Shown here: in pieces, positions 7,794 to 32,042 of the stretch
How positions within the stretch are numbered: position 1 is the first letter of the stretch
How the letters are laid out: every line of letters begins with the position of its first letter
The notes under the pieces: model-generated
Seen by the model: only the letters and a program-made list of their open reading frames with translations
Databases searched by the model: none
What the model was told of the DNA's origin: nothing
Assembly (NCBI GenBank): GCA_031269875.1
Contig: JAISYM010000128.1
Location: 1 to 32,042 of the forward strand
Direction of reading: 5' to 3'
DNA: 32,042 nt
DNA from: Synergistaceae bacterium
Lineage (GTDB): Bacteria; Synergistota; Synergistia; Synergistales; Synergistaceae
Position numbers and translations under genes: made by a program

Positions 7794-7810
7794 GCCGCTC
7801 ACCCCCGCTC

Positions 7811-10481: not shown

Positions 10482-10522
10482 CTGCCAAAATCTCCTCTAT
10501 ATAACGTGAAGCACATATTGTC

Positions 10523-11074: not shown

Positions 11075-11477
11075 CTTCGAGCACGGAATGCACAATAGTC
11101 GACGCGAACTTGAAATCGTCCCCCTGTATGTGATTGAGAAGCCAGTTTACTATAGTCGTCGTAACCTTGCCGACAAGCTCTTCCGTGGGCCCTTCCGCAA
11201 GCAGCTGCTTTGTAAGTTCGCGGACGTCCTTTTTAAATTCCTCGTGATACCACCTGTGGCGCTCGAAATCGGAGTACTTGTAAAACCGCATTAATTTTTC
11301 CTCATCCGAAAAGTGTTTTATTATGTAGCTGTTTAAAAATTCAAGCGTGTTTCCCAATTCGTCGGCGCCCCCGTTGCAGGAGTCCAAAAGCCTGTTTACA
11401 GCCGCTATCAGTTGTTTGTGCTGAAAATCTACCTTGCTGTGGCCAGTTTCGAGGCTACTGTCCCATTCGTATGCCGT
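11064..11477 (-). CDS. Bacteriohemerythrin with a non-canonical (ACG) start
   Basis: Hemerythrins bind O2 at a di-iron site and serve anaerobes in oxygen sensing or storage. The frame contains the whole family signature: YEWDSSLETGH, VDFQHKQL, a helix with IIKHFSDEEKLM, then RHRWYHEEF and LLNHIQGDDF, giving the His/Asp/Glu iron ligands. The N-terminal part lies upstream of the first usable canonical start (TTG 11387). In that upstream stretch the frame has no ATG, GTG or TTG between a TGA (11484-11486) and the conserved Trp. An ACG at 11475-11477 is preceded by GAGGTG at 7-base spacing and gives 137 residues, the normal length. It overlaps the unknown upstream gene by 23 bases. A sequencing error or a recent start mutation is the alternative. 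Confidence 0.75.
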   Translation of the reverse strand, partial: TAYEWDSSLETGHSKVDFQHKQLIAAVNRLLDSCNGGADELGNTLEFLNSYIIKHFSDEEKLMRFYKYSDFERHRWYHEEFKKDVRELTKQLLAEGPTEELVGKVTTTIVNWLLNHIQGDDFKFASTIVHSVLEDER

Positions 11478-13351: not shown

Positions 13352-13372
13352 TATACGCCTCTTCCCTTTTAT

Positions 13373-18600: not shown

Positions 18601-19485
18601 TTAAATTTGGAAATCCTTTATATATTCATACAGTTTCTGTTCGAAAAACCGTATACTCGGAATGCTTGACGCGACGGGAAATCTATGCGTTAACTTGTAG
18701 CATACTCTATCCGGTGGCATATCTATAAGGGCACATGTTTTGAGCGGTACTGTTTGTTGGCATTTCCTTATTACAGAGTGCGGTAAAATTGACCAATACT
18801 CTCCATCTATGAGAAAATCCAACAGGATAGCCACGTTATCCACTTGAATTGCCGGTGATACGTCTGGGGTACACCACCTATCATGCCATTGCGAAAATTC
18901 TGGTCCCCAGTTTAGAAGTATTTCCTGTTTGAAATTTAAATCACGCGGATGCACAGCTTTACTGGGGGGATTTATACGCTGAGAAAAAACCGCGGCCATT
19001 TTTTCTTTGAACAGCGGTTGCGCTATAACATTGCGGTAGTTGCTCTGTCTCAAAACTAAACCGATATCCACTAAGCGATTCTCAACCTGCTCATAAATTT
19101 CATTAGACTGATGTGTGAGAATGCGTAAATTTATAGGGCTATTCACGTCTTTTATTTTTTTATAAAACGGTGCAAAGCAGTACAAGTTCAAGCTATCTAC
19201 GCAACTCACCGATAAACTTAATTTATCCTCGTACCGGAGGGCGTAGGCCTCTTTGAAGATCTGTATCAACCTTTCAGCTATTGGAATGAAATCACGTCCT
19301 TTCTGAGTTAATTCCAATTGCCTTTTCCCCTTATGTCGTTCGAACAACGTAATGCCCAACTCATTTTCGAGTGTTTTTATTTGCAGACTTACCGTAGATT
19401 GCGCAAGAAATAAGTTATATGCCGCTTTGGCGATGTTTTTTGTGCGGGAAATTTCTAAAAAAGTATTTATAGAAGATAAATTCAA
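18601..19485 (-). CDS. LysR-family transcriptional regulator
   Basis: The 294-residue protein has an N-terminal winged helix-turn-helix (INTFLEISRTKNIAKAAYNLFLAQSTVSLQIKTLE split over two helices, then LGITLFERHKG) and a periplasmic-binding-protein-like effector domain. It probably controls the divergent gene train starting at 19897. The longest frame starts at ATG 19587, but TTG 19485 puts LNLSSINTFLEI at the usual LysR N terminus and has GAGAGGGG 8 bases upstream. The sequence around that TTG is nearly identical (20 of 21 bases) to the start region of the first rraA-like gene, which supports it. The effector is likely an organic acid of the imported pathway; this is inference. AT-rich coding unlike the genes to its left. 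Confidence 0.88.
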   Translation of the reverse strand: MNLSSINTFLEISRTKNIAKAAYNLFLAQSTVSLQIKTLENELGITLFERHKGKRQLELTQKGRDFIPIAERLIQIFKEAYALRYEDKLSLSVSCVDSLNLYCFAPFYKKIKDVNSPINLRILTHQSNEIYEQVENRLVDIGLVLRQSNYRNVIAQPLFKEKMAAVFSQRINPPSKAVHPRDLNFKQEILLNWGPEFSQWHDRWCTPDVSPAIQVDNVAILLDFLIDGEYWSILPHSVIRKCQQTVPLKTCALIDMPPDRVCYKLTHRFPVASSIPSIRFFEQKLYEYIKDFQI

Positions 19486-19896
19486 AAAAACACCCCTCTC
19501 TATATCTGCGCCGACCAACCCAAACATGCAATATACGCGATAATAACAGGCATCAATAGAATTCGTAAATTCACCAGCTTGGCACAACGCTCAAATCGCA
19601 TCGATTCGCGTACTGCCTTGATTTCTTGACATTAATATTGAACAGATTTTGAAGATTTGTGTACTCGAGTAAATATTGTGTTTTCCGATATTATATATAA
19701 AATATATTGTCTATTCAAGTATTAATATCTATGATATATTTCTTTCGCAAATTCTTAAAACAATAGTTTTCCTTTTGGCTTTATTAATTATAATTTTCGG
19801 TTGCTGACCAGAAATTGCTATTGTTTTATTGTGGAATAAGAATAAATACCGACGTTAATGTCGATAATCAACTGAAATACAGGGGAGGAATGTTCA
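19486..19896. promoter_or_regulatory. AT-rich divergent control region between lysR and the catabolic operon
   Basis: This 411-base gap holds no gene. It is strongly AT-rich, especially 19680-19800. A perfect 10-bp palindrome TACTCGAGTA lies at 19662-19671. A TATAAT at 19789-19794 could be the -10 of the rightward operon, with only a poor -35 about 17 bases upstream, which would fit dependence on an activator. Two related ATTAATAT stretches (near 19632 and 19721) could be parts of LysR sites, but no consensus is established. GGGGAGG precedes the ATG at 19897. Confidence 0.45.
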
Positions 19897-21099
19897 ATGG
19901 CTAATTTGGAAGTCGCAGCAGCGGGGGTTGTTTTCCCAAATCCGATCATCGTGGGATCGGCGTCGCCATCAATGGATTGGATCGGTACCAAGAAAGGGAT
20001 TGACGGAGGGGCGGGAGGGGTTATCGTAAAATCGCTTTTCAGCGAAAAAGGCAAACTGGGGCGCAATTTTCCGCGTCCTCGTTTTAAGTTGTATGACTAT
20101 AAAAATTACCCAGGATATCCCAATGTGTTACCGCACGCTTTCACCTTGAACTCACTCGAAGAATGTTCTCATTTCGGATATAAGGAATATATGGAAGACG
20201 TAAACAAAGCTAAGGACGCAATCGGCGATAAAGGTATAGTCATGGCGAGTCTTTCCGGAGTCTCGCTTGATGAATGGATTGAAATGTGCCAGCTCGTAAA
20301 CGAAACGACGGCTGATTGGGTAGAGTTGAATGTTTCTTGTCCCTTCGCTGCGGATATGGGCGTGAAAATGGGAGCGGGAGCGGTTGAAATGACCGCCGAA
20401 GTGGTAAAAACCTGCAAGAACCTTCTCAAGATTCCGTTCAGCGTAAAAATTTCCCCTCAGACAGTCGATCAATCGGTTGTTGCGCTTGCTTGTCAGGAAG
20501 CCGGGGCAATGGCTGTCAATATTTCCGCTCGTTTCTCCGGCTACGACTTGGATATCGAGACTGCTCGACCAATTGGCCCTGGAGCGCAGGGCGGTTGGGG
20601 CGGGCCTTACCTCATCGGCTATGGCCTCAAAAACGCCGCTATCACAGCGCGTAAAGTCAATATACCAATAATAGCTGGTCTGGGAGTGTGGGATTGGAAA
20701 GACATAATTAAGTATACCATGGTCGGGGCAACGCTGGTGCAATCCGGGATAGGCATTATGCTGAAAGGTTATGACGTAAGCAAAAGATGGGCCGAAAGCA
20801 TAAATCTTTGGCTGGAAGCGAAGGGGTATAAGTCCATAGACGAGATTCGCGGTATAGCCCTGTCAAACATACTCAAGACGTCTGAAGTTGAGCGCCAGCC
20901 AGTTGGTGTTTACGCCAAAATCGACACAGACAAATGCACTAAGTGCGGTATATGCAAGCGTAGTTGCTTCTACGACGCCATATCTCTTACGAAAATCGGA
21001 GCGATTATCGATAGCAAGAAATGTGACGGATGCGGGATGTGTGTCGAAGTATGCCCCGCTAACGCGGTTTCCATAGCGCGCCCCCAGGTACGTGTTTAA
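19897..21099 (+). CDS. PreA/dihydroorotate-dehydrogenase-like FMN enzyme fused to a 2[4Fe-4S] ferredoxin domain
   Basis: Residues about 1-320 form an FMN-binding TIM barrel like the C-terminal part of dihydropyrimidine dehydrogenase and class 1 DHODH: ELNVSCPFAADMG, FSVKISP and IPIIAGLGVW. Residues 338-400 carry two 4Fe-4S motifs (C347, C350, C353, C357; C376, C379, C382, C386). In dihydropyrimidine dehydrogenase the catalytic Cys follows the NxSCP block. Here the matching segment is MGAGAVEM with no Cys, and the later pyrimidine-contact Asn-Thr pair also appears changed (VNISARFSG). The substrate is therefore probably not a pyrimidine. It likely passes electrons between ferredoxin and an unknown acid. 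It is the first gene of the operon; the next gene encodes another flavoprotein. Confidence 0.8.
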   Translation: MANLEVAAAGVVFPNPIIVGSASPSMDWIGTKKGIDGGAGGVIVKSLFSEKGKLGRNFPRPRFKLYDYKNYPGYPNVLPHAFTLNSLEECSHFGYKEYMEDVNKAKDAIGDKGIVMASLSGVSLDEWIEMCQLVNETTADWVELNVSCPFAADMGVKMGAGAVEMTAEVVKTCKNLLKIPFSVKISPQTVDQSVVALACQEAGAMAVNISARFSGYDLDIETARPIGPGAQGGWGGPYLIGYGLKNAAITARKVNIPIIAGLGVWDWKDIIKYTMVGATLVQSGIGIMLKGYDVSKRWAESINLWLEAKGYKSIDEIRGIALSNILKTSEVERQPVGVYAKIDTDKCTKCGICKRSCFYDAISLTKIGAIIDSKKCDGCGMCVEVCPANAVSIARPQVRV

Positions 21100-21146
21100 G
21101 CGCCTGGTAGGGGCTTAGCATTGTCCATTGCTGAAGAGGGGTTGAA

Positions 21147-22775
21147 ATGGAAAGAATCGATTGCGATGTTTTGATAGTCGGTGGGGCAGCCGCGGGGATC
21201 CGGGCAGCACTGGAGGTCTCAGCAGTCCGTCCGGATCTTTACGTCCTAATGGTGGCGGATTCCCGATGCGAAGTTGGCGGCAGTACGAATATGGTTGCCT
21301 CCGAGGCTTTGGGGATCAACGCCCCATTCGACTATGAACACGATGGGGATACGGTAGAAATTTTCGAGAATGACATGATTCAGACCGGTGGAGGATTGGC
21401 CGAGCCAAAATTATGCGGGCTAATCGCGCGAGAATCTGCTGATCGCGTTCTGGAACTTATGGATATGGGACTAGTTTTCCATAGTTCTAACGGAAGACCG
21501 CACCAGAAAAAACTGTCTGGATGTACAAAGGCCAGAAGTTTGACGTGCGGTGGTGATACGGGACGTGAAATTGTGCGTGTTTTGAAGATGGCTGCTATTC
21601 AAAATGGAGTAAAAATACTTGAAAACATAAAGATTATAAGCCTGTTCACTGATGAAAACGGTGCCGTGAGCGGGGCGTATGGGATAATTTTGCAGCAAAG
21701 CCGCGTTGTATTTATCTCCACTTGCGCGGTTGTGCTGGCGACTGGCGGTTCTCCCGGGATGTTCCGTCTCAACGTCTCATCGCCTACGCAGACTGGCGAT
21801 GGGTGGGCAATGGCGTATGGTGTTGGTTGCAAATTTGTAAATATGGAGTTTTTCCAATGCGGCCCGGCTGTAGCGAAACAAGGCTTGAAATTTATCATTC
21901 ACAGCCATATTTGGAGCTTTAAACCGAGGCTCACGAATTCAAACGGCATCGATTTCTTGGAAAGTTATTGCGGAAGCAAAGCGCTGGCGGCAAAAGCGTT
22001 GGAGCTAAAGGCTATGTCATACCCGTTTTCGGTGCGGACAGACTCAAAGTACGTTGATATTGCGATTTTCAAAGAAATTGAGGAGGGAAGGGCCACTCCA
22101 AACGGAGGAGTCTGGTTTGATGTGACTCACATACCAAAGGAAAAGCTTCGGCAACGCGTACCCATTACTTACGATACGCTGCTTGGATGTGGGATTGACC
22201 TTGCCGTGCACCCTATCGAACTGCAAATCGCCGTTCAGAATTTTAACGGGGGTATCCTAATAGACGAAGATGGGTTTACGGGAATCGAAGGTTTGTACGC
22301 GGCGGGCGAAGTAAGCGGCGGGGTACATGGCGCGGACAGGCCCGGGGGTAATAATCTCACAGATACGCAGGTTTTTGGGTACAGAGCGGGACAGGCTGCG
22401 GCGCTTCGTACGCGTTTTGGCAATAAAAACACCAGAGCGAAAGATATGGATATCGCCAGCATGCTCGCATCTGAAGATGAACTGAAAATTATTAAAGAAA
22501 GCGAAAAAATTTATTTTCGCTACATGACAATCATAAGAAATAAAGCAGGTATTCAAAAGGTCTTTGATTTTATAGATGAACATGATAAAAAAGCAGTTTC
22601 AGTTCAGTTAAAAAACAGATTGACCGTTGGCCGCATTTTGGCACAGGCGATACTTATCCGAGAGGAAAGCCGTGGAACCCATTACCGTGAAGACTATCCA
22701 GATAACGACGACAGGTGGTGCAGACGCATCGTCCTCAGCAAAGGATCGGATGGTTTTCCTATTGAATCCAGTTAA
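21147..22775 (+). CDS. Fumarate-reductase/L-aspartate-oxidase-type FAD flavoprotein
   Basis: The 542-residue protein has the N-terminal FAD-binding motif VLIVGGAAAGIRAALE (8-23), a GGS-N covalent-flavin-region loop, a second dinucleotide segment ALATGGSP-like (VVLATGGSPGMF), and the C-terminal GLYAAGEVSGGVHGADRPGGNNL of the succinate dehydrogenase/fumarate reductase family. The family's catalytic His before the GGI strand seems to be Gln (IAVQNFNGGI), so simple fumarate reduction is doubtful. It has no signal peptide and no membrane partner, so it should be cytoplasmic. It lies 47 bases after the ferredoxin-fused enzyme and may form a redox complex with it, oxidising or reducing a C-C bond of the pathway intermediate. 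Confidence 0.78.
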   Translation: MERIDCDVLIVGGAAAGIRAALEVSAVRPDLYVLMVADSRCEVGGSTNMVASEALGINAPFDYEHDGDTVEIFENDMIQTGGGLAEPKLCGLIARESADRVLELMDMGLVFHSSNGRPHQKKLSGCTKARSLTCGGDTGREIVRVLKMAAIQNGVKILENIKIISLFTDENGAVSGAYGIILQQSRVVFISTCAVVLATGGSPGMFRLNVSSPTQTGDGWAMAYGVGCKFVNMEFFQCGPAVAKQGLKFIIHSHIWSFKPRLTNSNGIDFLESYCGSKALAAKALELKAMSYPFSVRTDSKYVDIAIFKEIEEGRATPNGGVWFDVTHIPKEKLRQRVPITYDTLLGCGIDLAVHPIELQIAVQNFNGGILIDEDGFTGIEGLYAAGEVSGGVHGADRPGGNNLTDTQVFGYRAGQAAALRTRFGNKNTRAKDMDIASMLASEDELKIIKESEKIYFRYMTIIRNKAGIQKVFDFIDEHDKKAVSVQLKNRLTVGRILAQAILIREESRGTHYREDYPDNDDRWCRRIVLSKGSDGFPIESS

Positions 22776-22796
22776 TTAACGAAGAGGGGTGTTTTT

Positions 22797-23462
22797 ATGA
22801 ATTCGTTCGACGAGAAATACCGATCCAAGTTCGATGACCTGTCCACTACAAATATATCCGACGCATTGGACGCATTAAATTTAAGAGGAGCCACATACGG
22901 TATCCGCCCGATGTGGCACACGATGACGAAAGTTTTGGGAGAAGCCGTTACATTGAAAATGACGGCGGCAGGTCTTACAAAAGGGAAAAACCACCTCGGA
23001 GTCAAAGCTATAGATGCCGCGTCAGCGGGGAACGTAATAGTTATAGATAACGGCGGACGTTTGGACACATCATGTTGGGGCGGCATACTAGCCAATGGGG
23101 CGAAGATGAAAGGCGTTAACGGAGTAGTGATAGACGGTGCCTGCCGTGATATCGACGACTGCGTCGAATGCGGTTTCAACGTATATGCGAGAGGCGCCGT
23201 AGTCGCCACGGCACGCGGCCGCGTTATGGAAGAATCGACCAACACGATGGTTCAATTCGGCGGAGTACAGGTTCGGCCGGGTGATATTGTCTTTGGAGAC
23301 AAAAGCGGGGTTGTGATAATACCGATTGAACGCCTTGACGATGTGATGGGTAAGGCGTTGGAACTATATAAAAAGGAAGAAGATATGATAAAGGAAATAA
23401 AGTCAGGGAGACCCATGATAGATGTGGATGAAAAGTATAACTATGAAAAAATGCTGAAATAG
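22797..23462 (+). CDS. RraA-like / HMG-aldolase family protein, copy 1
   Basis: This 221-residue member of the RraA family is related to 4-hydroxy-4-methyl-2-oxoglutarate (HMG) aldolase and oxaloacetate decarboxylase. The metal/substrate motif G-x(about 20)-R-D is present: NGGRLD at 85-90 and CRDIDD with R117-D118. SGVVIIP near the end is typical. It is a likely Mg-dependent retro-aldolase or beta-keto-acid decarboxylase acting in the cytoplasm. The family is trimeric, with active sites between subunits. Its start has GAAGAGGGG upstream. It is the first of three consecutive paralogues, 21 bases after the flavoprotein. Confidence 0.85.
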   Translation: MNSFDEKYRSKFDDLSTTNISDALDALNLRGATYGIRPMWHTMTKVLGEAVTLKMTAAGLTKGKNHLGVKAIDAASAGNVIVIDNGGRLDTSCWGGILANGAKMKGVNGVVIDGACRDIDDCVECGFNVYARGAVVATARGRVMEESTNTMVQFGGVQVRPGDIVFGDKSGVVIIPIERLDDVMGKALELYKKEEDMIKEIKSGRPMIDVDEKYNYEKMLK

Positions 23463-23483
23463 AACAGAGGGAGCATTTGGCAG

Positions 23484-24101
23484 ATGAAGAAATTGACAGA
23501 AGCTTTCAAAGTATTGCCGTTAGGGAATATATGTGACGCAAACGGTAAGTGTGGCAATATGGACGTAGGCATCAAACCGATAGACCCTCTTTGCAAAATG
23601 GCGGGGCTTGCTTTTACTGTAAAAGGGCACCCAGGGGACAATGCAGCCATCCATAAAGCTATTTACGAGGCTCCCGAGGGTTCCATTTTGGTGGTTGACG
23701 TAGACGATTACTGTCGTGGAGGGCACTTTGGAGAGATTATGGCAACTGCGTGTATGTGTCGCGGCATAGCTGGGCTTGTCATAGATGGCACGGTCAGGGA
23801 TGCTAACGAAATTCAAGAGCTGGGTTTTCCCGTATTCTGCCGTGGCTTTGCATCAGGCGGCACACAAAAAGAGGTAATAGGCGTTAGTGGAATCAGTATA
23901 GTCTGTGGCGGTGTCATGGTGAATAACGGCGATATCGTTGTCGGCAACCGCGACGGGGTTGTGGTGGTGGGGAAAGATGTTGCTGAAGAGGTTCTCGTAA
24001 ACGCGCAGGCAATTGCCAAGAAAGAAATAGAGGTTTTGAAACTGCTGAACGAAGGGAAGTCGACCATCGAAATTTACCGGTTTAAGAAACTAATTCAATA
24101 A
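23484..24101 (+). CDS. RraA-like family protein, copy 2 (divergent)
   Basis: This 205-residue paralogue is the most different of the three. It keeps the R-D motif (TVRDANE, R105-D106) and, unlike copies 1 and 3, has Glu in the GGHFGEIMAT block, the form usual in HMG aldolases. Its N terminus is shorter (KVLPLGNICDANGKCGNMD) with several Cys. The final strand NRDGVVVV is family-like. It has a GAGGGAG site 12 or so bases before ATG. It sits 21 bases after copy 1 and 34 before copy 3. Confidence 0.82.
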   Translation: MKKLTEAFKVLPLGNICDANGKCGNMDVGIKPIDPLCKMAGLAFTVKGHPGDNAAIHKAIYEAPEGSILVVDVDDYCRGGHFGEIMATACMCRGIAGLVIDGTVRDANEIQELGFPVFCRGFASGGTQKEVIGVSGISIVCGGVMVNNGDIVVGNRDGVVVVGKDVAEEVLVNAQAIAKKEIEVLKLLNEGKSTIEIYRFKKLIQ

Positions 24102-24135
24102 TAATAAGGATGTCTAACTCTGTGAGGTGAATATA

Positions 24136-24801
24136 ATGTCGAAAATCTTTGACGAAATAATAAAGGAGCGGCTTCTTAAATACGGCACTTGCTCTGTTTC
24201 CGATGCGATGGACAGGATGGGCATAGCGTGTGGTCTGCTCAATATCAAGCAGGTTGTCAGATGCAGGTCTATTTGCGGGCCGGCGTTCACGGTTCACTAC
24301 GTGCCGTGTGGGGTGGAACACGGGACTGTTGGTGACTTTCTTGACGATGTAAAATCGGGAGAGGTCGTCGTCATCGACAACGCGGGACGTAATTATTGCA
24401 CAGTTTGGGGAGGCCTTATGTCTCAATCTTCCAGTTTGCGCGGGATTGAGGGGACTGTCATCGACGGAGTATGCCGTGATGTTGGCGTCATCCACGAGTA
24501 CAGCTACCCTATTTTCACAAAGGGTTGCTATATGGTGACAGGCAAGGACAGAGTTGAGGTCGACGCCACGAACGTCAAGGTGTCGGTATCGGGAGTTCAG
24601 GTTAAACCGGGCGATATCGTACTCGGAGACGACAGCGGTGTTATCGTCATACCAGCAGAGCGCTTGGAGCAGTTATTACAGATAGCTGAAGAAATATTTG
24701 AGAAGGAAGAGGCTATATCAAATAAGATAGCACAAGGAGTATCTTTGCGGGACGCAAGGTCTTCGGTTTCTTATCACAGCTTGCAGACTAGGTCAGACTG
24801 A
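24136..24801 (+). CDS. RraA-like / HMG-aldolase family protein, copy 3
   Basis: This 221-residue protein is closest to copy 1. Family features are VSDAMDRMGI, DNAGRNYCTVWGG (81-93), CRDVG with R114-D115 and GDDSGVIVIP. ATG 24136 is chosen over GTG 24127 because GAGGTG sits 6 bases before the ATG and itself includes that GTG. It probably cleaves or decarboxylates a 2-oxo acid. It ends 17 bases before the aconitase-X large subunit. Confidence 0.84.
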   Translation: MSKIFDEIIKERLLKYGTCSVSDAMDRMGIACGLLNIKQVVRCRSICGPAFTVHYVPCGVEHGTVGDFLDDVKSGEVVVIDNAGRNYCTVWGGLMSQSSSLRGIEGTVIDGVCRDVGVIHEYSYPIFTKGCYMVTGKDRVEVDATNVKVSVSGVQVKPGDIVLGDDSGVIVIPAERLEQLLQIAEEIFEKEEAISNKIAQGVSLRDARSSVSYHSLQTRSD

Positions 24802-24818
24802 ATTAGGAGGCAATAAGG

Positions 24819-26033
24819 ATGCGTCTCTCTGATGAAGAACAACGCATGCTGGACGGAGTTTACGGTGAAATGACCCGGAAGAACATGAAAGTATTGGTGA
24901 CATTGGGTAAGATTTTCGGCGCTGAAAGGATGATAAAGATAAACAACGTCCATACTCCGGGCGTTTCTTATCGCGTCACTGGGGACGCCGGGCTGAATTA
25001 CGTCAAAGAAGCCAGCCAGAGCGTGAAATTTAAGATTCCGGCGACGCTCAACACGATTGGCATTGATTATGAAAACTGGGAAAATGTTGGCTTCCCAGCG
25101 GAGTTTTCCAACAAGCAAATGGAATTGTGTGAATGTTACAAAAAAATGGGCGCGATCACTACAAACACCTGCACTCCCTATTTTGTCGGCAGCGTTCCAT
25201 CGTTTGGGGAGCATATTGCATGGGGAGAATCATCGGCAATCGTATTTGCCAATTCTGTTTTAGGTGCTCGCACCAATCGAGAAGGAGGCCCTACTGCGCT
25301 TGCCGCCGCAATAACTGGTAGAGTTCCCGAATACGGCCTCCATCTCGACGAGAATCGTAAGGGTACGCATCTGATAAGGGTTGAAAAGCAGCCCGAAACG
25401 GATAAAGATTACGCGGTATTGGGATATTTCGCAGGACTTTTAGTGGGACAAGATATTCCTGTTTTCGAGGGGATTAAATCGCGCCCGTCTATTGAAAATC
25501 TCAAGGCTCTCGGTGCCGCATTGGCTTCATCCGGCGCTGCTGCGCTGTTCCATATGATAGGCATCACCCCCGAAGCCTCGCGAAAAAGCGACGTCGTAAG
25601 GAGCAACGTCGATGCTGTCATGTTTGGTCAAGACGAACATGACAGAGTTTGCGAAAAATTTTACCTTACTGGTGCCATTGATTTTGTGGTTTTAGGTTGT
25701 CCACATACGTCAATAATTGAAATACGCGACATCGCAAAAATGATCGCTGGCAAAAAAATTAAAACAGGTTTGTGGGTATGTGCTTCCAGGCAGGTTAAAT
25801 CACTGGCGGACACAATGGGTTACAGCAAGATGATCACAGATGCAGGAGGAGAGATCATCTGCGATACATGTCCCGTACTCTGTGCTACGCTGACTGAGCG
25901 CAAATACCAGACTGTCGCCACTAATTCCGGGAAAATGGCTCACTACGCTCCTGGCTTGTGGAATATGCAACCTCTGCTGCTCGATACTAGCGACTGCATA
26001 AAATCTGCCGTAAGCGGCGAGTGGAGAGGTTGA
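24819..26033 (+). CDS. Aconitase X catalytic (large) subunit
   Basis: Aconitase X enzymes are Fe-S dehydratases of hydroxy acids: cis-3-hydroxy-L-proline dehydratase and mevalonate-5-phosphate dehydratase are known. The 404-residue protein shows the AcnX catalytic pattern: YFVGSVPSFGEHIAWGESSAIVFANSVLGARTN (in 121-153) and three Cys at family positions, C118 (TNTCTPY), C294 (VLGCPH) and C351 (CDTCPVL). The small subunit is a separate gene 3 bases downstream, as in two-subunit types. AGGAGG precedes ATG. No proline racemase or ornithine cyclodeaminase gene is nearby, which argues against hydroxyproline use. Neighbouring ubiD and ubiX make a dehydration-decarboxylation module likely. Confidence 0.88.
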   Translation: MRLSDEEQRMLDGVYGEMTRKNMKVLVTLGKIFGAERMIKINNVHTPGVSYRVTGDAGLNYVKEASQSVKFKIPATLNTIGIDYENWENVGFPAEFSNKQMELCECYKKMGAITTNTCTPYFVGSVPSFGEHIAWGESSAIVFANSVLGARTNREGGPTALAAAITGRVPEYGLHLDENRKGTHLIRVEKQPETDKDYAVLGYFAGLLVGQDIPVFEGIKSRPSIENLKALGAALASSGAAALFHMIGITPEASRKSDVVRSNVDAVMFGQDEHDRVCEKFYLTGAIDFVVLGCPHTSIIEIRDIAKMIAGKKIKTGLWVCASRQVKSLADTMGYSKMITDAGGEIICDTCPVLCATLTERKYQTVATNSGKMAHYAPGLWNMQPLLLDTSDCIKSAVSGEWRG

Positions 26034-26036
26034 AAA

Positions 26037-26441
26037 ATGTCCGAAAAAACGCTGAAAGGCCGCTGTATAGTAGAAGGCGAAACAGAAGGTGAGGCTATTG
26101 TCACGAAAGATCCGATCTCTTTTATGGGCACAGTAAACCCTAAAACCGGCGTAATTATCGAACGCAAACATGAGATTGAAGGTTCGTGTCTCAAGGGAAA
26201 AATCTTGGTATTCCCGCACTCAAAGGGTTCGACCGGCGGATCATACATGCTGTACGACGCAGTAAAAAATTGCGTCGGGCCGGTTGGGATCATCAACAGA
26301 GCGGCTGAGTCGGTAGTCACTATCGGAGCTATTGTGGCCGAACTGCCAATGGTGGATCAAGTAGACATAAGTCAGATAAAAACGGGAGATTATGTTTATC
26401 TGAACGCAACCGAAGGCGTCGTCAGGGTAGTGTCGAAGTAA
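26037..26441 (+). CDS. Aconitase X swivelling (small) subunit
   Basis: This 134-residue protein is the swivel domain (DUF126 type) that closes over the AcnX large subunit. The diagnostic stretch is PHSKGSTGGSYMLYDA (60-75) with the conserved Ser (S65), followed by RAAESVVTIGAIVAELPMVDQVD. The N-terminal GRCIVEGETEGEAIVTKDPISF matches the family. GAGAGG lies just upstream of ATG. It is 3 bases after the large subunit, so the two are made stoichiometrically. After it comes a 119-base gap with a stem-loop, then ubiD. Confidence 0.87.
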   Translation: MSEKTLKGRCIVEGETEGEAIVTKDPISFMGTVNPKTGVIIERKHEIEGSCLKGKILVFPHSKGSTGGSYMLYDAVKNCVGPVGIINRAAESVVTIGAIVAELPMVDQVDISQIKTGDYVYLNATEGVVRVVSK

Positions 26442-26475
26442 AAAACTAATGGTGGAGGTGGTGTGATTAAGGGTG

Positions 26476-26532
26476 ATCTCTCAAGAGGATATCGAGACAG
26501 AATGTTGGTGCTGACCATTAGAGAGATTTTTT
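26476..26532 (+). terminator. Stem-loop with T tract between acnX small subunit and ubiD
   Basis: An inverted repeat (ATCTCTCAA at 26476-26484, TTAGAGAGAT at 26518-26527) is followed directly by a run of six T (26527-26532). The loop is about 33 bases, so the hairpin is modest. It could be a weak terminator or attenuator inside the operon that lowers ubiD expression relative to the genes before it. Confidence 0.4.
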
Positions 26533-26560
26533 AGATTGATTTTTTAAAGGAGGAATTCCG

Positions 26561-27907
26561 ATGATAGACTTAAAATCATTTCTGGAAAGTATTAAAGCAG
26601 ACAAGAATCATTTTTTGACTGTCAAGCGCGAGGTGGATGCAAAATTTGAAGCGTCAGCAGTACTCGAAAAGTTGCAGCACGAAAATCGTTATCCCGCCGT
26701 ATATTACGAAAAGGTAAAGGGTTATGATTTCCCCGTGGTGAGCAATGTTTTTGCGGATAGAGACCGTATCGCAATTGCTTTCGGTGTCGACAGTAAAAAC
26801 CTTAACCGTACCATTCGCGAACTTGAAGTGAACCCCATAGCCCCGGTTATGGTAAGTGACGCGGCTGTTCAGGAAGTCGTATATACTGGAAATGAGGTTG
26901 ACCTTACAAAATTTCCTGTTTTCACGCATAACGCGGAAGAAGTGGGGCCGTACATTTCCTGCGGAATGCTTGTCGGGAAAGATCCAGAGACAGGCATACG
27001 CAATGTCGGGATGTACAGGCACCTCGTCCAGTCAAAAAACCAAATCGGCGTTCATTTCGCGGAAACGGGTCACGGGCGCCTACTGTTCGATAAGTGGCAG
27101 GCAAAGGGAGAAAAAATGCCGGTAGCAATTACTATAGGGCATCACCCACTGGTATATTTGGGTGCGCTCAGCTTTGTACCATTCGGCATTGATGAATATA
27201 CGATAATGGGCAGCTTTATAAAAGAACCGTTACGTTTGGTCAAATGTAAAACAGTCGACCTAGAAGTTCCAGCTGAAGCGGAAATAGTCTTGGAGGGTTA
27301 TGTGGAGACGCAAGAGACTACATTGGACGGTCCCATCGGTGAATATACAACTGTTTACGGAAAACAACGCCAGAATCCGTTTATAAAAATAACTGCAATA
27401 ACTATGCGCAAAAATCCGATATATTTTGACTGCTTCAACGGCCATATTGATCATATGCTCCTTGGTGGTACACCACGCCTTGGATCTATATATCGCGCTG
27501 TGAAAACCGCTTGCCCGACTGTAGTAGATGTGTACATGCCTCCATCCGGCACGTGCCGTTTCGCATGTTACATCAGCATCAAAAAAAGACACGAAGGAGA
27601 GGCAAAGAATGCCATCTGCGCGGCGATTGGGGCTGACCCGTTCATCAAGCTCTGCATAGTGGTCGATGATGATGTGGATATATTCAACGATTCGAAGATG
27701 TTACTGGCTATAAACACAAGAATGCGGCCTAGGGATAATCTATTCATGATCCCTGGAGCTAAAACCAACGCCCTTGACCCGACTGTCGAAAATGAACTCC
27801 TCGTGACAAAAATAGGGATCGATGCGACTAAGCCGCTTGTTGGATTCCCTAATACGGTGAGTGTTCCGGGCGCAAGGGAGCTTGACTTGTCGAAGTATAT
27901 AGGTTGA
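26561..27907 (+). CDS. UbiD-family prFMN-dependent decarboxylase
   Basis: UbiD enzymes (de)carboxylate alpha,beta-unsaturated or aromatic acids using prenylated FMN. The 448-residue length is normal. The cofactor-binding pattern is clear: N148 and R153 in NVGMYRHL, H165, GHHPLVYL at 193-200, a DEY (E212) and DGPIGEY (D256 and E261). In Fdc1 the corresponding pair is Glu and Glu; the first is Asp here. It is in the same operon as a UbiX (prFMN synthase) and the AcnX dehydratase, which makes unsaturated acids. It probably removes CO2 from the dehydration product. A strong AAAGGAGG site precedes ATG. The substrate cannot be read from the sequence. Confidence 0.9.
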   Translation: MIDLKSFLESIKADKNHFLTVKREVDAKFEASAVLEKLQHENRYPAVYYEKVKGYDFPVVSNVFADRDRIAIAFGVDSKNLNRTIRELEVNPIAPVMVSDAAVQEVVYTGNEVDLTKFPVFTHNAEEVGPYISCGMLVGKDPETGIRNVGMYRHLVQSKNQIGVHFAETGHGRLLFDKWQAKGEKMPVAITIGHHPLVYLGALSFVPFGIDEYTIMGSFIKEPLRLVKCKTVDLEVPAEAEIVLEGYVETQETTLDGPIGEYTTVYGKQRQNPFIKITAITMRKNPIYFDCFNGHIDHMLLGGTPRLGSIYRAVKTACPTVVDVYMPPSGTCRFACYISIKKRHEGEAKNAICAAIGADPFIKLCIVVDDDVDIFNDSKMLLAINTRMRPRDNLFMIPGAKTNALDPTVENELLVTKIGIDATKPLVGFPNTVSVPGARELDLSKYIG

Positions 27908-27945
27908 CGGACAAATTCAAAAAACAATTAATCTTGTGGTTGGCA

Positions 27946-28004
27946 CAAGGCCAAAATCCACTAGCGATACATATATTTAATTATATAGTGTGTTTTGGCC
28001 CTTG
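27946..28004 (+). other. Long imperfect stem-loop upstream of dctP
   Basis: Arms 27946-27963 and 27986-28004 are complementary except for a one-base bulge and two mismatches (CAAGG-CCAAAA-CACTA against TAGTG-TTTTGG-CCCTTG). The 22-base loop is almost all A and T. It lies in the 125-base gap between ubiD and dctP with no T tract after it, so it looks like an mRNA processing or stability structure, not a terminator. Confidence 0.5.
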
Positions 28005-28032
28005 CTTTACAAACGATTGGGAGGTAGCAGTT

Positions 28033-29037
28033 ATGAATTTACTGAGGAAAATAGCTATTTTCGCTTCGCTGTCGATAATGTTGTGCGCCTTAAGTGGTGG
28101 TATCGCTCAAGCTGCGTCACCCGCTAAAATCGTCATGAGAGTAGGCACCCCTACAACGATCAAAGACATACAGTACTATGAAATGGAACAATTTAAGAAG
28201 CTGCTGGAAGAGAAAATTGGCGACAAGATTTCGGTAGAATTATACCCAGCGGGCCAACTAGGGAGCAATGCTCAGATGCTTCAAGGCATTCAGGCAGGGG
28301 CCGTCCATGGTTTGCTTGAACCGACAGCCTTCCTAGGAGGGTTCTGTAGCGTAGCAAATGTCGTAGACCTGCCATATATGTTCAAAGACGTTTGGAGCGC
28401 GACGGAGATTTTAAATACGAAGGATGGTGATCAATTGCGCGATTATCTGGCAACGCGCGAGGTGTTCACCGCGAGCTTTTACCCTCACGGTGACAGGATT
28501 ACGCTTATAAACGCTCCAATAAATTCGATTAAAGATTTGGCAGGTAAAAAAATACGTGTGATGGGTGCAAAGGTACTGCAGGATCAATACGCTTCGTGGG
28601 GCGCGACTGGGATCCCTATGGACGTGCCAGAACTTTACACCGCGTTACAGCAAGGGACAATAGATGGTTTAGAAAGTTCGCCGACATTCTGTCAGCAAGG
28701 GAAGTATTTCGAGGTCGCAAAAAATCTCTTTTACGAACCAAAAGGTGCCGAAGTGACTATTTTTATGCTCAGCAAAGTATGGTTCGATAAGCTGCCTGAA
28801 GACATCAAATCAGCAATCATTGAAACGGCCAAGGAAGTTCAACCGCTGGCTGATAAACAGTCGAGAGTGATGCAGGAAGAGTCTATAAAGATTATGAAAG
28901 ATGCCGGAGTAAATGTGATCATAACCTCACCGGAATTCCATGACGAACTTGTTAAGAGAGCGCTATCAGTACACGATATATTTCTTAAAGATAATCCAGA
29001 GGCTAAGCCCATATACGATCACTTTAAAAGCTTATGA
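28033..29037 (+). CDS. dctP: TRAP transporter substrate-binding protein
   Basis: DctP-type proteins bind an organic acid in the periplasm and hand it to the DctQM membrane part. From ATG 28033 (GGGAGG upstream) the 334-residue protein begins with a signal peptide: KIAIFASLSIMLCALSGGIAQA, cleavage probably after A27. The mature protein has the DctP pattern: VELYPAGQLGSNAQMLQGIQAGAVHG and the conserved Arg/Asn region DLAGKKIRVMGAKV, then AVQQGTIDG-like ALQQGTIDGLE. A carboxylate substrate is expected from the conserved RVM Arg. The longer frame from 27904 is not used. It is flanked on both sides by large stem-loops, which may raise its mRNA level. Confidence 0.93.
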   Translation: MNLLRKIAIFASLSIMLCALSGGIAQAASPAKIVMRVGTPTTIKDIQYYEMEQFKKLLEEKIGDKISVELYPAGQLGSNAQMLQGIQAGAVHGLLEPTAFLGGFCSVANVVDLPYMFKDVWSATEILNTKDGDQLRDYLATREVFTASFYPHGDRITLINAPINSIKDLAGKKIRVMGAKVLQDQYASWGATGIPMDVPELYTALQQGTIDGLESSPTFCQQGKYFEVAKNLFYEPKGAEVTIFMLSKVWFDKLPEDIKSAIIETAKEVQPLADKQSRVMQEESIKIMKDAGVNVIITSPEFHDELVKRALSVHDIFLKDNPEAKPIYDHFKSL

Positions 29038-29089
29038 ACCAAAAGAAACGCGCGATATTTGACCTAGTTTGCCGGAAACACTAAATTTT

Positions 29090-29180
29090 GCGTTGCTAAG
29101 CTTCTAGGGTATGGGCGAGCTCTAAGTTAAACAAACAGCATTCGATTGAATGATTTTGATACCCTAGAACTTGGCAACGC
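29090..29180 (+). other. Long imperfect inverted repeat downstream of dctP
   Basis: Arms 29090-29112 and 29159-29180 pair over about 22 bases (GCGTTGC..AAG..TTCTAGGGTAT against ATACCCTAGAA..CTT..GCAACGC) with few mismatches. The 46-base loop contains a smaller hairpin (CATTC 29139-29143, GAATG 29148-29152). It occupies most of the 203-base dctP-dctQ gap. It may protect dctP mRNA ends or be a degenerate small mobile element; no target duplication was seen. Confidence 0.5.
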
Positions 29181-29240
29181 CTTTATGCAGACACTGATAA
29201 TCAAATAGCCCAAACGAGGTTTAATGCGAGGAGTGATTCG

Positions 29241-29768
29241 ATGATTAATGCGATACGAAAATACGTTAATAAATTAAATGGGGCTATAAATTCGCTCTCT
29301 ATAATAGCCATGGTGATCTGTGTATCGTCTGCGACTCTAAACACCGCTATGAGATATTTATTAAATCATCCATTGCGATGGAGCGAGGAAGTTTGCGTCA
29401 TTTCGCTTGTATGGGTGGTCTATTGTTCGCTTCCTCTATTGGAGGAGCACCGAGAACATCTCAATATGACTGCAATCTATAATCTTTTCCCGGAAAAATT
29501 CAAAAGTTTTGTCGATTTAATATGTAAGCTCACAATTGTTATTATTGCACTGTATATCGCAAAGATAAGCCTGGACATAATGTTGCGCAACTATGACCTC
29601 AAAATTAACACACAGGTTTTGGATTTGCCTTATTGGACTATATACCTCGTGATTCTGATAAGTTTCGTTTTGATTGCCATGACCAGTATACTCGCCTTAT
29701 TTCCGGAAACTAAATTGGAAAATGAAGGAAACTCCACGATTGAAGAACAAGGAGCTGATACGAAATGA
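29241..29768 (+). CDS. dctQ: TRAP transporter small permease subunit
   Basis: DctQ is the small membrane subunit of the tripartite importer. The 175-residue protein has four hydrophobic segments (about 18-40, 51-72, 88-110 and 130-152). The conserved MRYLLNHPLRWSEEVCVISLVWVVYCSLPLLEEHREHL block with its Arg, Trp and Glu pair is present between segments 1 and 3. GCGAGGAG lies upstream of ATG 29241. Its stop overlaps the dctM start by 4 bases. The 203-base gap before it holds a large inverted repeat. Confidence 0.9.
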   Translation: MINAIRKYVNKLNGAINSLSIIAMVICVSSATLNTAMRYLLNHPLRWSEEVCVISLVWVVYCSLPLLEEHREHLNMTAIYNLFPEKFKSFVDLICKLTIVIIALYIAKISLDIMLRNYDLKINTQVLDLPYWTIYLVILISFVLIAMTSILALFPETKLENEGNSTIEEQGADTK

Positions 29769-31003
29769 TAACCTTACTGTTTTTATTCGTTCCCCTGATG
29801 CTTGGCTTTCCAATCTACACCGGTCTCCTGCTGAGCGGTGGGTATCTCCTCATCTTTGGTTATGGCGTTCCTGCGGATATGTTGGTAACAAGTATGTTTG
29901 ATGGTGTAGCTAAATTTAGCCTAAGCGCGGTTCCATTTTTTCTCTTTGCCGGGTGTGTTATGGAACGCACCAGCATAGCTGCAAGACTTGTCGGGTGTTT
30001 TACCCCGTGGTTGATTCGCGCGCGCGGCGGGATAAGCATTGCAGCCGTATGCGCTAATGAGGTTTTCGGCGCGATGTCCGGTTCCGCCCCTGCCGCCGCT
30101 GGGACAATAGGCAAAGCGATGTTTCCGATAGTAAGCAAAGATTCTGGGGAGAGTTTTGCACTTGGTTTATTTGCTTCATGCGGAGCGCTCGCGATTATAA
30201 TGCCTCCGAGCATTAATATGATCATTTTCGCTACATCGACTAACGTCTCGATAAGCAGGCTGTTCAAGGCCGGAATCATTCCAGCGCTGATTATAGGTTT
30301 ATTTCTCTCTGCGTATCTCGTAAAAAAGAGTAAGCCGGTATCGCCTGACAATAAATTCGATATTAATTACGCAATGAAATCGCTCTGGCGCGGATTGCCA
30401 GCGCTATCATTGCCGGTTCTGATTTTGGGTGGTATCTACGGAGGGATTTTCACTCCTAGCGAAGCTGGGGCTATCTCAGCTGTTTACGCATTGATAGTAG
30501 CAAAGTTTATATTCAACGAGATAAATTGGAAAATAATCATCGCATGCTTGCGGGATACGGTAAAATTGACCGGTCAAATATTTATATTAATTGCAGCGAG
30601 CACGGTTTTTTCACAAGCCTTAGCTATAGCGCAAGTACCTGCCATGCTTGGAAATGCTTTGAGCGGTCTGAGTGAAGTATCTTTCCTCGTGTTGATGAAT
30701 ATAGTGCTTTTAATCGCTGGGGCGTTTTTCGATCCGACATCGGCGATACTAATCCTTGCTCCTGTTTTCATACCAATATCCGCTACGCACGGAATAGATC
30801 CAATTCACGCGGGGATTATTTTCACAATAAATCTCGCCATAGGGATGTTTACCCCTCCTTTCGGGTTGAATTTATTCGTAATCCAGGGTATCTTTAATAA
30901 ACCTATGGAAGTCATAGCAAAATCAATTGTACCGTTCTTCTTTGTGTATCTGGTATGTTTAGTCATATTTACTTTTTGTCCACAACTCTACATGTGGTTA
31001 TGA
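29765..31003 (+). CDS. dctM: TRAP transporter large permease subunit
   Basis: DctM is the ion-coupled transport subunit. The 412-residue protein is hydrophobic throughout, with about 11-12 membrane segments. Family motifs: PFFLFAGCVMERTSIAARLV, GSAPAAAGTIGKAMFPI, PPSINMIIFATSTNVS, GGIYGGIFTPSEAGAISAVYAL and the C-terminal MFTPPFGLNLFVIQG. The start overlaps dctQ by 4 bases (ATGA). It is 20 bases before ubiX, which shows that the transporter belongs to the UbiD/UbiX system and is not a separate unit. Confidence 0.94.
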   Translation: MITLLFLFVPLMLGFPIYTGLLLSGGYLLIFGYGVPADMLVTSMFDGVAKFSLSAVPFFLFAGCVMERTSIAARLVGCFTPWLIRARGGISIAAVCANEVFGAMSGSAPAAAGTIGKAMFPIVSKDSGESFALGLFASCGALAIIMPPSINMIIFATSTNVSISRLFKAGIIPALIIGLFLSAYLVKKSKPVSPDNKFDINYAMKSLWRGLPALSLPVLILGGIYGGIFTPSEAGAISAVYALIVAKFIFNEINWKIIIACLRDTVKLTGQIFILIAASTVFSQALAIAQVPAMLGNALSGLSEVSFLVLMNIVLLIAGAFFDPTSAILILAPVFIPISATHGIDPIHAGIIFTINLAIGMFTPPFGLNLFVIQGIFNKPMEVIAKSIVPFFFVYLVCLVIFTFCPQLYMWL

Positions 31004-31023
31004 TTTTACGAGGGGGGACCCTT

Positions 31024-31593
31024 ATGAAAAAACGTATTATAGTAGCCATTTCTGGTGCTACGGGTGTCGTCTACGGTATACGTTTGCTAGAAATCCTAAG
31101 GGAAACAGGTGATTTTGAAGTTCATTTGATATTGAGCGAGTGGGCTTGCAAAAATATAGAGATAGAGAGCGAGAAGTCCGTTGATTATATTAAGGGACTG
31201 TGTGATTTTTATTATGACAACAATCAGTTAGATGCCTGTATTTCGAGCGGATCTTTTCTCGTGCTCGGAATGCTGATCGTTCCTTGCAGTATGAAGACGC
31301 TCTCGGCCATTGCCAATGGTTACGCGGATTCATTGATATCCCGTTGTGCGGATGTCTCACTCAAGGAACAGCGCCCGCTGATTATTGCCCCTCGCGAGAC
31401 GCCACTAAGTACGATTCACCTTGAAAATATGTTGAAGTTGTCAAAAATGGGGGTCTGTATAATTCCCCCAATGCCTTCCTTTTATAATAAACCACAGACG
31501 ATTGACGACATTATCAATCATTTTTGCGGCAGGCTCCTCGATAAATTCGGAATCACGAATGGATATTCAAGGCGATGGAACGGTACGGTTTGA
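31024..31593 (+). CDS. ubiX: UbiX-type flavin prenyltransferase
   Basis: UbiX joins dimethylallyl (pyro)phosphate to FMN to make the prFMN used by UbiD. The 189-residue protein has GATG (11-14), SSGS (74-77), PCS (87-89), LKEQRPL (113-119) and PRETPL (123-128), all family signatures. ATG 31024 has GAGGGGGGA just upstream; the frame is open further back into dctM but that part is not used. It is the last gene of the locus. It supplies the cofactor for the decarboxylase 3 kb upstream. A second copy elsewhere in the genome cannot be excluded. Confidence 0.94.
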   Translation: MKKRIIVAISGATGVVYGIRLLEILRETGDFEVHLILSEWACKNIEIESEKSVDYIKGLCDFYYDNNQLDACISSGSFLVLGMLIVPCSMKTLSAIANGYADSLISRCADVSLKEQRPLIIAPRETPLSTIHLENMLKLSKMGVCIIPPMPSFYNKPQTIDDIINHFCGRLLDKFGITNGYSRRWNGTV

Positions 31594-31673
31594 GAAACAC
31601 ACAGCTTGATTGTTTGGGGTTTACGCGGCATTGAGAGTTCTGGTTGTGTCCGTTACGAAGTAAATACCCATAT

Positions 31674-31930
31674 TCAATTATTATGCGGCTTCTTTGCGCT
31701 TAAGGATACGCCGCAGTTCCGATGCAAGCACCAGAGATCCGGGTTTTTCACGACCCAGTGGCGGGTCTTGGCTGAGCCTACGCGCTCAACCATCTCAAGT
31801 TTTTTCAATCCGTCAATGTTCTTCTGCACTCCTGTTCTTCTGCACTCCGCGAGATGACATCACAATTTTCTCTGATATTGTCTTGGCACTGATTCGCGGT
31901 TGCTCCGTAAGCGTCAAATAGGGCGTCACC
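31674..31930 (-). pseudogene. Remnant of a winged-helix C-terminal domain, frameshifted
   Basis: On the minus strand one frame reads YLTLTEQPRISAKTISEKI-MSSRGVQKN, then after the duplication the neighbouring frame reads IDGLKKLEMVERVGSAKTRHWVVKN before a stop at 31674. Joined, they form a helix-turn-helix/winged-helix of the kind found at the C terminus of Fic- or AAA_4 (Schlafen-like)-type DNA-associated proteins. The frame is broken by an exact 16-bp tandem duplication at 31817-31848. No ATP-binding domain is present upstream, so it is a truncated remnant. The exact parent family is uncertain. Confidence 0.6.
31817..31848. repeat. Exact 16-bp tandem duplication
   Basis: The unit TGTTCTTCTGCACTCC occurs twice in direct tandem at 31817-31832 and 31833-31848. 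Sixteen bases is not a multiple of three. Removing one copy restores a continuous winged-helix frame on the minus strand, so the duplication is the likely inactivating event or one of them. Confidence 0.9.
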
Positions 31931-31995
31931 TGTAAAGGCGGAGCGAAAAGCGATAGACTGCCTCTCTGTGAAAGTGAAGAATGGAGGGGTTTGTA

Positions 31996-32042
31996 TTGGG
32001 TATGACAGCGCATCGTCCGAAAGAAGAACGTAACCGCCTCGT
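31996..32042 (+). CDS. Possible start of a gene running off the window
   Basis: A GGAGGGG site (31983-31989) is followed by TTG 31996 and ATG 32002 in one open frame that reaches the window end (MTAHRPKEERN from the ATG). An ATG at 31981 is in the same frame. Only about 15 codons are visible, so neither the product nor the reality of the gene can be judged. Confidence 0.25.
   Translation, partial: MGMTAHRPKEERNRL

Follow-up and report, generated by a model that had tools for sequence, protein, structure and literature searches.

Proteins of the RraA family have diverse or unknown functions, and the characterised member to which one of the proteins described here is closest is the HMG/CHA aldolase of the LigK/GalC type (PDB 3noj). 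An RraA-type aldolase also acts with oxalomesaconate hydratase in the lower pathway of gallate and protocatechuate degradation. Among UbiD-family decarboxylases, the solved structure closest to ours is HmfF, a 2,5-furandicarboxylate decarboxylase (PDB 6h6v), whose specificity residue His296 corresponds to H297 in the numbering of PMC7976604. The aconitase X (AcnX) family has two known functions, namely hydroxyproline dehydratase and the archaeal phosphomevalonate dehydratase (AcnX type IIb; A. pernix and T. kodakarensis; PDB 7cnr/7cns), a two-subunit enzyme in which phosphate is bound by the main chain of a G48-V49-S50 stretch and by the Asn53 side chain. The function of the bacterial types IIc to IIf is unknown according to the literature (PMC8184944, PMC10040528).

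Relatives of these enzymes are found together in a Synergistaceae bacterium, in a window (the whole stretch of DNA analysed) of 32,042 nucleotides. A row of plus-strand genes spans positions 19897-31593 behind a divergent LysR gene, and all named genes are intact ORFs at the following positions:

18601-19587, minus strand: LysR-type regulator, divergent from the operon and its probable regulator (PF00126 and PF03466)
19897-21099, plus strand: PreA/dihydroorotate-dehydrogenase-like FMN protein with two [4Fe-4S] motifs (PF01180 and Fer4; PRK08318 at 194 bits, below the cut-off of 335)
21147-22775, plus strand: FrdA/SdhA/NadB-like flavoprotein without an FrdB partner (PF00890/PF02910; alignment to 7d6v and 1chu)
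22797-23462, plus strand: RraA1, RraA-family lyase (PF03737; alignment)
23484-24101, plus strand: RraA2, closest to 4-hydroxy-4-methyl-2-oxoglutarate/4-carboxy-4-hydroxy-2-oxoadipate aldolase (PDB 3noj, 130 bits; PRK09262)
24127-24801, plus strand: RraA3, RraA-family lyase (PF03737; alignment)
24819-26033, plus strand: AcnX large subunit, two-subunit type (PF04412, 494 bits; 7cnr, 326 bits)
26037-26441, plus strand: AcnX small subunit (swivel domain) with the catalytic Ser-Thr in KGSTG (PF01989, 105 bits; 7cnr_B, 123 bits)
26561-27907, plus strand: UbiD-family prFMN-dependent decarboxylase, HmfF-like (PF01977/PF20695/PF20696; TIGR00148 at 373 bits, above the cut-off of 245; 6h6v, 289 bits)
28033-29037, plus strand: DctP, TRAP solute-binding protein, start corrected (PF03480; NF037995, 177 bits, above the cut-off of 50)
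29241-29768, plus strand: DctQ, TRAP small permease (PF04290)
29765-31003, plus strand: DctM, TRAP large permease (PF06808)
31024-31593, plus strand: UbiX flavin prenyltransferase, start corrected (TIGR00421 at 243 bits, above the cut-off of 109; PRK06029, above cut-off; PF02441)

The gene unit is larger than the 24819-31593 interval of the first-pass annotation: it starts at 19897 with the PreA-like and fumarate-reductase-like genes and takes in three RraA genes. The two-subunit AcnX, UbiD, UbiX, importer, aldolases and LysR gene that this annotation listed were all recovered with family profile matches, its "aldolases" being the three RraA-like proteins (all PF03737) at 22797-24801. Two listed ORF starts were too early. 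The likely ATG of DctP is at 28033 instead of 27904, judging from the upstream sequence and the ORF translation, and the translation likewise places that of UbiX at 31024 instead of 30955. UbiX is predicted to supply prFMN to the UbiD of this operon. An Rfam search of the window gave no match. Promoter-like sites were moderately above shuffled sequences and terminator-like sites were not, and neither was taken as evidence.

Residues and relatives of the cluster enzymes

In an alignment with the archaeal phosphomevalonate dehydratase as reference, the window AcnX kept the cluster ligands Cys110, Cys283 and Cys342, the catalytic Glu129, Ser130, Lys361 and Tyr365 of the large subunit and Ser62-Thr63 of the small one, as well as the G48-V49-S50 stretch. 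Unlike the archaeal enzyme, it has Arg for Lys52, Gly for Val64 of the small subunit and Val for the phosphate-binding Asn53, the last change being common to all RraA-linked AcnX. The anion-site loop reads P-G-V-S-Y-R-V in all six close orthologues. Alignment thus indicates an enzyme with the archaeal catalytic residues and an altered anion pocket. Each tree contained one archaeal sequence only: in that of 64 rows, whose branches were long, AcnX was sister to the archaeal enzyme (92/81), and the tree of 35 rows did not resolve their branching. A position nearer to the archaeal two-subunit type than to the hydroxyproline dehydratases is supported. The window protein also resembles types IIc to IIf (PMC8184944, PMC10040528) as a two-subunit bacterial AcnX lacking the landmark residues of both known functions.

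RraA2 aligned with the HMG/CHA aldolase over its full length. Arg123, Asp124 and Glu199 of 3noj, which we take to be metal and substrate residues, were kept in all three RraA proteins. Where the characterised aldolase has Asp102, Gly was found in RraA1 of all orthologues and in the window RraA3, and Glu in RraA2. RraA2 further differs from that aldolase in having two paralogues alongside and in scoring just under the NCBI cut-off of one equivalog model (PRK09262, 166 bits against 179) and well below that of another (TIGR02798, 144 against 304).

The window UbiD is approximately 36% identical to HmfF. Both His296 and Arg304 of HmfF were kept in this protein and in the UbiD of a related locus (L032), whereas in the UbiD of another (L034) the His is replaced by Gln and the Arg is kept. 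Unlike HmfF, the enzyme lies in an operon with no recognised furan-catabolic genes. The three UbiD proteins are orthologous, with 52-57% identity to that of the window against at most 37% for the other UbiD proteins compared. The first-pass annotation had named an aromatic acid decarboxylase identity as evidence against its own reading, and with HmfF as nearest solved structure and the specificity His in place, the UbiD half leans that way. A role in menaquinone or ubiquinone synthesis is disfavoured, as the menaquinone decarboxylase and ubiD models scored far under their cut-offs and the genome's sole UbiD sits in the operon.

Orthologues of the PreA-like protein in L034, L036 and L089 were 76-83% identical. 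This protein is probably a C=C oxidoreductase or the electron partner of the flavoprotein. Alignment of the latter to 7d6v and 1chu revealed that the Arg residues of its pocket are kept and that both His residues (in HPT and HYxxGG) are replaced, the corresponding motifs being FFQCGPA and QNFNGG. We presume these Arg and His positions to be the dicarboxylate-pocket residues of fumarate reductase, succinate dehydrogenase and aspartate oxidase. The loss of both His disfavours a fumarate reductase role.

Genome context and related loci

The host genome encodes IspG of the MEP route, while HMG-CoA reductase gave no match in it although five control searches scored, and the window holds the genome's only AcnX and only UbiD. 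Because of this gene content, an isoprenoid role of the cluster was ruled out; the look for an isoprenoid route that the first-pass annotation had proposed therefore bears out the catabolic setting it had assumed. Compared with the archaeal system, the host uses the MEP route and AcnX is partnered by RraA proteins, not by mevalonate enzymes. Third-position GC was 0.41-0.55 across the cluster versus 0.69-0.77 upstream, a base composition that points to horizontal acquisition. RraA1 was not found in same-genus genomes. In broader surveys of two orders, with 394 genomes from each, RraA1 was matched in the seed genome only, as was AcnX among 392 genomes of a third order.

AcnX and RraA1-3 occurred together in all nine loci of this AcnX group (the window, L031, L032, L033, L034, L036, L092, L094 and L110), which had been retrieved by AcnX searches without RraA as a query, and none of 36 further AcnX loci contained RraA. 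The AcnX of this group is invariably accompanied by the RraA triad. UbiD and UbiX were found in three of the nine (the window, L032 and L034), always with the PreA/flavoprotein pair, itself present in four. AcnX-UbiD was rejected as a conserved pair on this comparison. No UbiD match at all was obtained in genomes G103, G105 and G022, though several related loci come from draft or metagenome-assembled genomes in which absences, such as that of UbiD in G105, may be assembly gaps. Because the UbiD carriers are nested within the PreA carriers, the distribution suggests that these modules are peripheral entry steps. The triad itself is not dedicated to AcnX, since one further locus (L105) carries it without a nearby AcnX.

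Several related clusters have GntR-type-looking regulator genes in place of LysR. Neighbouring genes include homoaconitase-like LeuC/LeuD, a homoisocitrate-dehydrogenase-like gene and an OadA-like gene at L033, a DASS carrier adjoining the L031 cluster, TctC-looking proteins at L094 and L110, and a PrpD-like gene at L110. These neighbours point to di- or tricarboxylates. The tertiary-hydroxy acid suggested as substrate in the first-pass annotation is, if given a second anionic group, a reasonable class in view of the conserved active-site residues and of the dicarboxylate/tricarboxylate-type importers near several clusters. The RraA-AcnX partnership is compact and repeated in anaerobes and in Cupriavidus, and the combination is described nowhere in the literature searched.

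A candidate catabolic route and its alternatives

We lean towards reading the operon as a horizontally acquired catabolic set that acts on a polycarboxylic acid taken up by the cell, probably a tertiary-hydroxy or an unsaturated one, and that has AcnX and three RraA proteins as its conserved lower pathway. With a similarly modest preference, we regard it as a case in which a relative of an archaeal isoprenoid enzyme is paired with three aldolase-like proteins, and not as a borrowed isoprenoid pathway. The proposal starts from the genes present, the catalytic residues that are kept, the recurrence of the same gene sets, a base composition that points to horizontal origin and the lack of any sign of a mevalonate pathway. 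The TRAP importer would bring in the acid, and UbiD with UbiX-made prFMN and the PreA/flavoprotein pair, as optional modules most likely upstream of AcnX, would decarboxylate and oxidise or reduce it. AcnX, with its [4Fe-4S] cluster, would add or remove water beside a carboxylate, after which RraA2 may cleave a 4-hydroxy-2-oxo acid, releasing pyruvate together with another oxo acid, either oxaloacetate or again pyruvate. RraA1 and RraA3 could catalyse related oxo-acid steps, e.g., decarboxylation, tautomerisation or a second cleavage. We infer the direction and order of the steps, the products and the polycarboxylate substrate; the order UbiD, PreA/flavoprotein, AcnX is drawn solely from the nested distribution in few clusters. 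Against this reading stand the Gly of RraA1 and of the window RraA3 at the Asp102 position, the score of RraA2 just under the curated aldolase cut-off, the diverse or unknown functions of the RraA family and the triad without AcnX at L105.

It is unlikely, though worth weighing, that the operon puts the steps of the archaeal modified mevalonate pathway to catabolic use, with AcnX dehydrating a tertiary-hydroxy acid (e.g., 3-hydroxy-3-methylglutarate) and UbiD directly decarboxylating the unsaturated product. AcnX, UbiD and UbiX are adjacent in the window and again in L032 and L034 with orthologous UbiD proteins, and AcnX is more like the archaeal enzyme than the hydroxyproline enzymes. However, six of the nine clusters have no nearby UbiD, UbiD shares the two HmfF residues, and the scheme accounts for neither the PreA/flavoprotein pair nor the RraA triad found in every cluster. 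The archaeal-toolkit reading of the first-pass annotation thus kept its catabolic setting and its archaeal-like AcnX, but dehydration followed by UbiD decarboxylation was not supported as the organising logic.

More doubtful is a specific version of the polycarboxylate reading, a C7 oxo-tricarboxylate route of the 4-oxalomesaconate/4-carboxy-4-hydroxy-2-oxoadipate type (e.g., from 2-pyrone-4,6-dicarboxylate), in which AcnX would replace oxalomesaconate hydratase and RraA2 would be the 4-carboxy-4-hydroxy-2-oxoadipate aldolase yielding pyruvate and oxaloacetate. The succession of a hydratase and an RraA-type aldolase would match the logic of the gallate/protocatechuate lower pathway, with the difference that the hydratase here would be an iron-sulphur enzyme of another family and that ring-cleavage genes are lacking. 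RraA2 matches that aldolase, OadA/B-like genes lie beside the L033 cluster, and a heteroaromatic dicarboxylate would be a fitting substrate for an HmfF-like UbiD. A different AcnX (L111) is clustered with homoaconitase-like genes and a PrpF protein best matching 4-oxalomesaconate tautomerase, but this match is under the cut-off (316 bits against 440) and the L111 AcnX sits on a long branch. Moreover, known pathways to such compounds need oxygenases, and the operon has no ring-opening lactonase.

A shuffled island rather than a single pathway, in which UbiD/UbiX and AcnX/RraA are regulated together but act on different substrates, would fit the varying optional modules, the differing importers and the 120-base gap between the AcnX small subunit gene and UbiD, but is improbable given that three distant genomes that differ in gene order all combine UbiD/UbiX with PreA/flavoprotein and AcnX/RraA. 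Finally, a hydroxyproline dehydratase identity of AcnX is scarcely credible and was rejected on residues and tree, the comparison for which the first-pass annotation had called: the family and general catalytic residues are shared and the NCBIfam model matched at 316 bits, but far under its cut-off of 700, all six orthologues have Pro in place of the Asp that binds the ring nitrogen, the CxC cluster site is missing, the characterised enzyme belongs to a clade that does not include AcnX of the window, and no proline or hydroxyproline genes were recognisable in the operon.

The polycarboxylate reading leads to a tentative but serious suggestion, namely that the aconitase X family has a third physiological role. 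Within a widely scattered, undescribed AcnX-RraA catabolic module, an acyclic di- or tricarboxylate may be hydrated or dehydrated by a two-subunit AcnX of bacteria that is possibly nearer to the archaeal isoprenoid enzyme than any other bacterial relative. The AcnX-RraA partnership brings a small, testable gene set to the puzzle of the bacterial types IIc to IIf (PMC8184944, PMC10040528). Should this AcnX prove to hydrate polycarboxylates, the archaeal isoprenoid and hydroxyproline enzymes would be relatives of a family that also serves bacterial carboxylate catabolism.

Gene row and origin of the cluster

The named ORFs proved intact at the coordinates of the first-pass annotation, and family searches upheld their families. 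Its genes stand, but its interval was too short: the unit begins at 19897 with the PreA-like and flavoprotein genes. The DctP and UbiX starts were too early in the automatic ORF list and were revised.

Features of the unit in the window
ahead of 19897, divergent: LysR gene
19897-21099: PreA-like FMN/iron-sulphur protein, first gene of the unit
21147-22775: fumarate-reductase-like flavoprotein, near the 5' end
22797-23462, 23484-24101 and 24127-24801, + strand: three RraA-like proteins, RraA1 to RraA3 (family search)
24819-26033: aconitase X (AcnX) large subunit (family search)
26037-26441: AcnX small subunit (family search)
26561-27907: UbiD (family search)
from 28033 (DctP start): DctPQM TRAP importer (family search)
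from 31024: UbiX (family search)

On sequence evidence, the cluster is a horizontal acquisition. Its third-codon-position GC is 0.41-0.55, whereas housekeeping genes lying upstream on this contig have 0.69-0.77. A close RraA1 was absent from the three same-genus genomes searched, whose sole AcnX is 33% identical, and a survey of two orders with RraA1 (394 genomes each, E <= 1e-60) matched only the seed genome. Close relatives of the cluster occur in Clostridium sp., an Oscillospiraceae bacterium and Spirochaetaceae, Desulfosporosinus and Treponema MAGs. The island, where third-position GC drops sharply (18601-31593), adjoins a HisF-like gene. Past UbiX (31594-32042), no intact gene was found; a short minus-strand ORF (31674-31829) resembles a gene remnant, and decayed sequence may thus mark the end of the island.

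AcnX and its conserved partners

An isoprenoid role for AcnX and UbiD was rejected, since the genome search found IspG, no match to HMG-CoA reductase, and a single AcnX and a single UbiD, both inside the window. The top solved AcnX relative was the Thermococcus kodakarensis phosphomevalonate dehydratase (7cnr, 326 bits), with hydroxyproline dehydratase at 221 bits. In a 64-row tree, the window AcnX and five orthologues formed a clade (support 100/99) with the T. kodakarensis enzyme nearby on a long branch (92/81) and the hydroxyproline enzyme in a different clade. When further RraA-linked members were included in a smaller tree, the T. kodakarensis enzyme had no firm position.

Using residues mapped from the published structure (PMC8184944), we found all three cluster cysteines (110, 283, 342), Glu129, Ser130, Ser131, Asn79, Lys361, Tyr365 and small-subunit Ser62-Thr63. 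The main-chain Gly-Val-Ser stretch that binds phosphate in the archaeal enzyme is present in all six close orthologues, whereas Asn53, Lys52 and small-subunit Val64 are replaced by Val, Arg and Gly, and the Asp binding the proline nitrogen in hydroxyproline dehydratase is Pro. These residues point to an intact [4Fe-4S] (de)hydratase acting on an acid that bears another anionic group, probably not phosphate. A separate, mostly alphaproteobacterial subtype (L044-L063) probably has a different reaction or cluster type; the four aligned members (L044, L045, L052, L057) carry Glu129Asp, Ser130Thr, Ser131Gly and site-1 Cys283Ala.

Scanning AcnX loci for relatives of the window proteins, we found three RraA genes close to AcnX in all nine sufficiently complete loci of its group (the window, L031, L032, L033, L034, L036, L092, L110 and L094, from a Cupriavidus necator plasmid). 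None occurred in the 36 other AcnX loci scanned, some on short contigs; in two (L056 and L093, 44-47% identity to the window), RraA genes could be missing because the contigs are cut at the AcnX gene. Four of these loci (window, L032, L034, L036) also have PreA and the flavoprotein, and the three that have UbiD and UbiX (window, L032, L034) all carry PreA as well; UbiD had no match in the draft or MAG assemblies of L033, L036 and L092. Such nesting would be expected if PreA/flavoprotein and UbiD were entry modules that lead into one shared lower pathway. The importer also varies (DctPQM, fused TRAP with a TAXI-looking protein, Liv-type ABC, SSS-looking, DASS, TctC-looking), several names being assigned by eye from sequence. 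Neighbours include homoaconitase-like LeuC/LeuD, homoisocitrate-dehydrogenase-like and OadA-like genes (L033), a PrpD-like gene (L110) and sarcosine-oxidase-like genes (L092).

In the Desulfosporosinus MAG, a frameshift or assembly error breaks the PreA gene of L034 (1846-2998) into two ORFs that overlap. A different AcnX (L111, G1430:C50) shares its cluster with homoaconitase-like and homocitrate-synthase-like genes, genes of HpaI-type aldolase, two that look like MmgE/PrpD, and a PrpF protein whose best match is 4-oxalomesaconate tautomerase.

UbiD, the flavoprotein and the RraA triad

UbiD (TIGR00148) and UbiX both scored above their family cut-offs. The top solved UbiD relative was 6h6v, Pelotomaculum thermopropionicum HmfF (PMC8988006), which shares His296 and Arg304; this His (H297 numbering) is key to furan specificity (PMC7976604). 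The likeness is suggestive only, because the L034 UbiD has Gln there. The flavoprotein retains the two Arg of its relatives' dicarboxylate pocket but both His are replaced, and an ordinary fumarate reductase role is therefore disfavoured.

RraA2 aligned over its length with 3noj, an HMG/CHA aldolase (130 bits), narrowly missing the NCBI equivalog cut-off (166 vs 179). Arg123, Asp124 and Glu199 are present in all three paralogue groups, while the counterpart of Asp102 varies: all RraA1 proteins have Gly, RraA2 has Asp/Glu, and RraA3 has either Asp or Gly. Each group retains its own signature across phyla, and distinct roles are therefore probable. Without AcnX nearby, an RraA1-RraA3-RraA2 triad of 35-43% identity (L105, G041:C28, 2502-4616) is flanked by oligopeptide-type ABC transporter and indolepyruvate:ferredoxin oxidoreductase-like genes. 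The second RraA1 of genome G022 (L104, C2, ~6793-14087; 68% identity) stands alone among genes resembling 5-oxoprolinase subunits (PxpABC) and DUF1445 proteins, a context that hints at a wider role for RraA1.

A proposed pathway

Gene content, residues, co-occurrence and the lack of HMG-CoA reductase are seen in the sequences; from them we infer, as the best reading, the following order, direction and products. The acid would be imported, UbiD and PreA/flavoprotein would prepare an intermediate, and AcnX would move water at the carbon adjoining the carboxylate-bearing carbon. RraA2 would then split a 4-hydroxy-2-oxo acid, releasing pyruvate together with another oxo acid, and related oxo-acid steps would fall to the remaining RraA proteins. 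Dehydration by AcnX before decarboxylation by UbiD, proposed earlier by analogy with the archaeal modified mevalonate pathway, would be possible in the three UbiD-bearing clusters but is not a constant feature. Among AcnX types, only I, IIa and IIb have a published function (PMC8184944, PMC10040528), and the literature searched contained no AcnX-RraA link. The enzymes belong to known families; the AcnX-RraA module they form is undescribed, as its reaction probably is.
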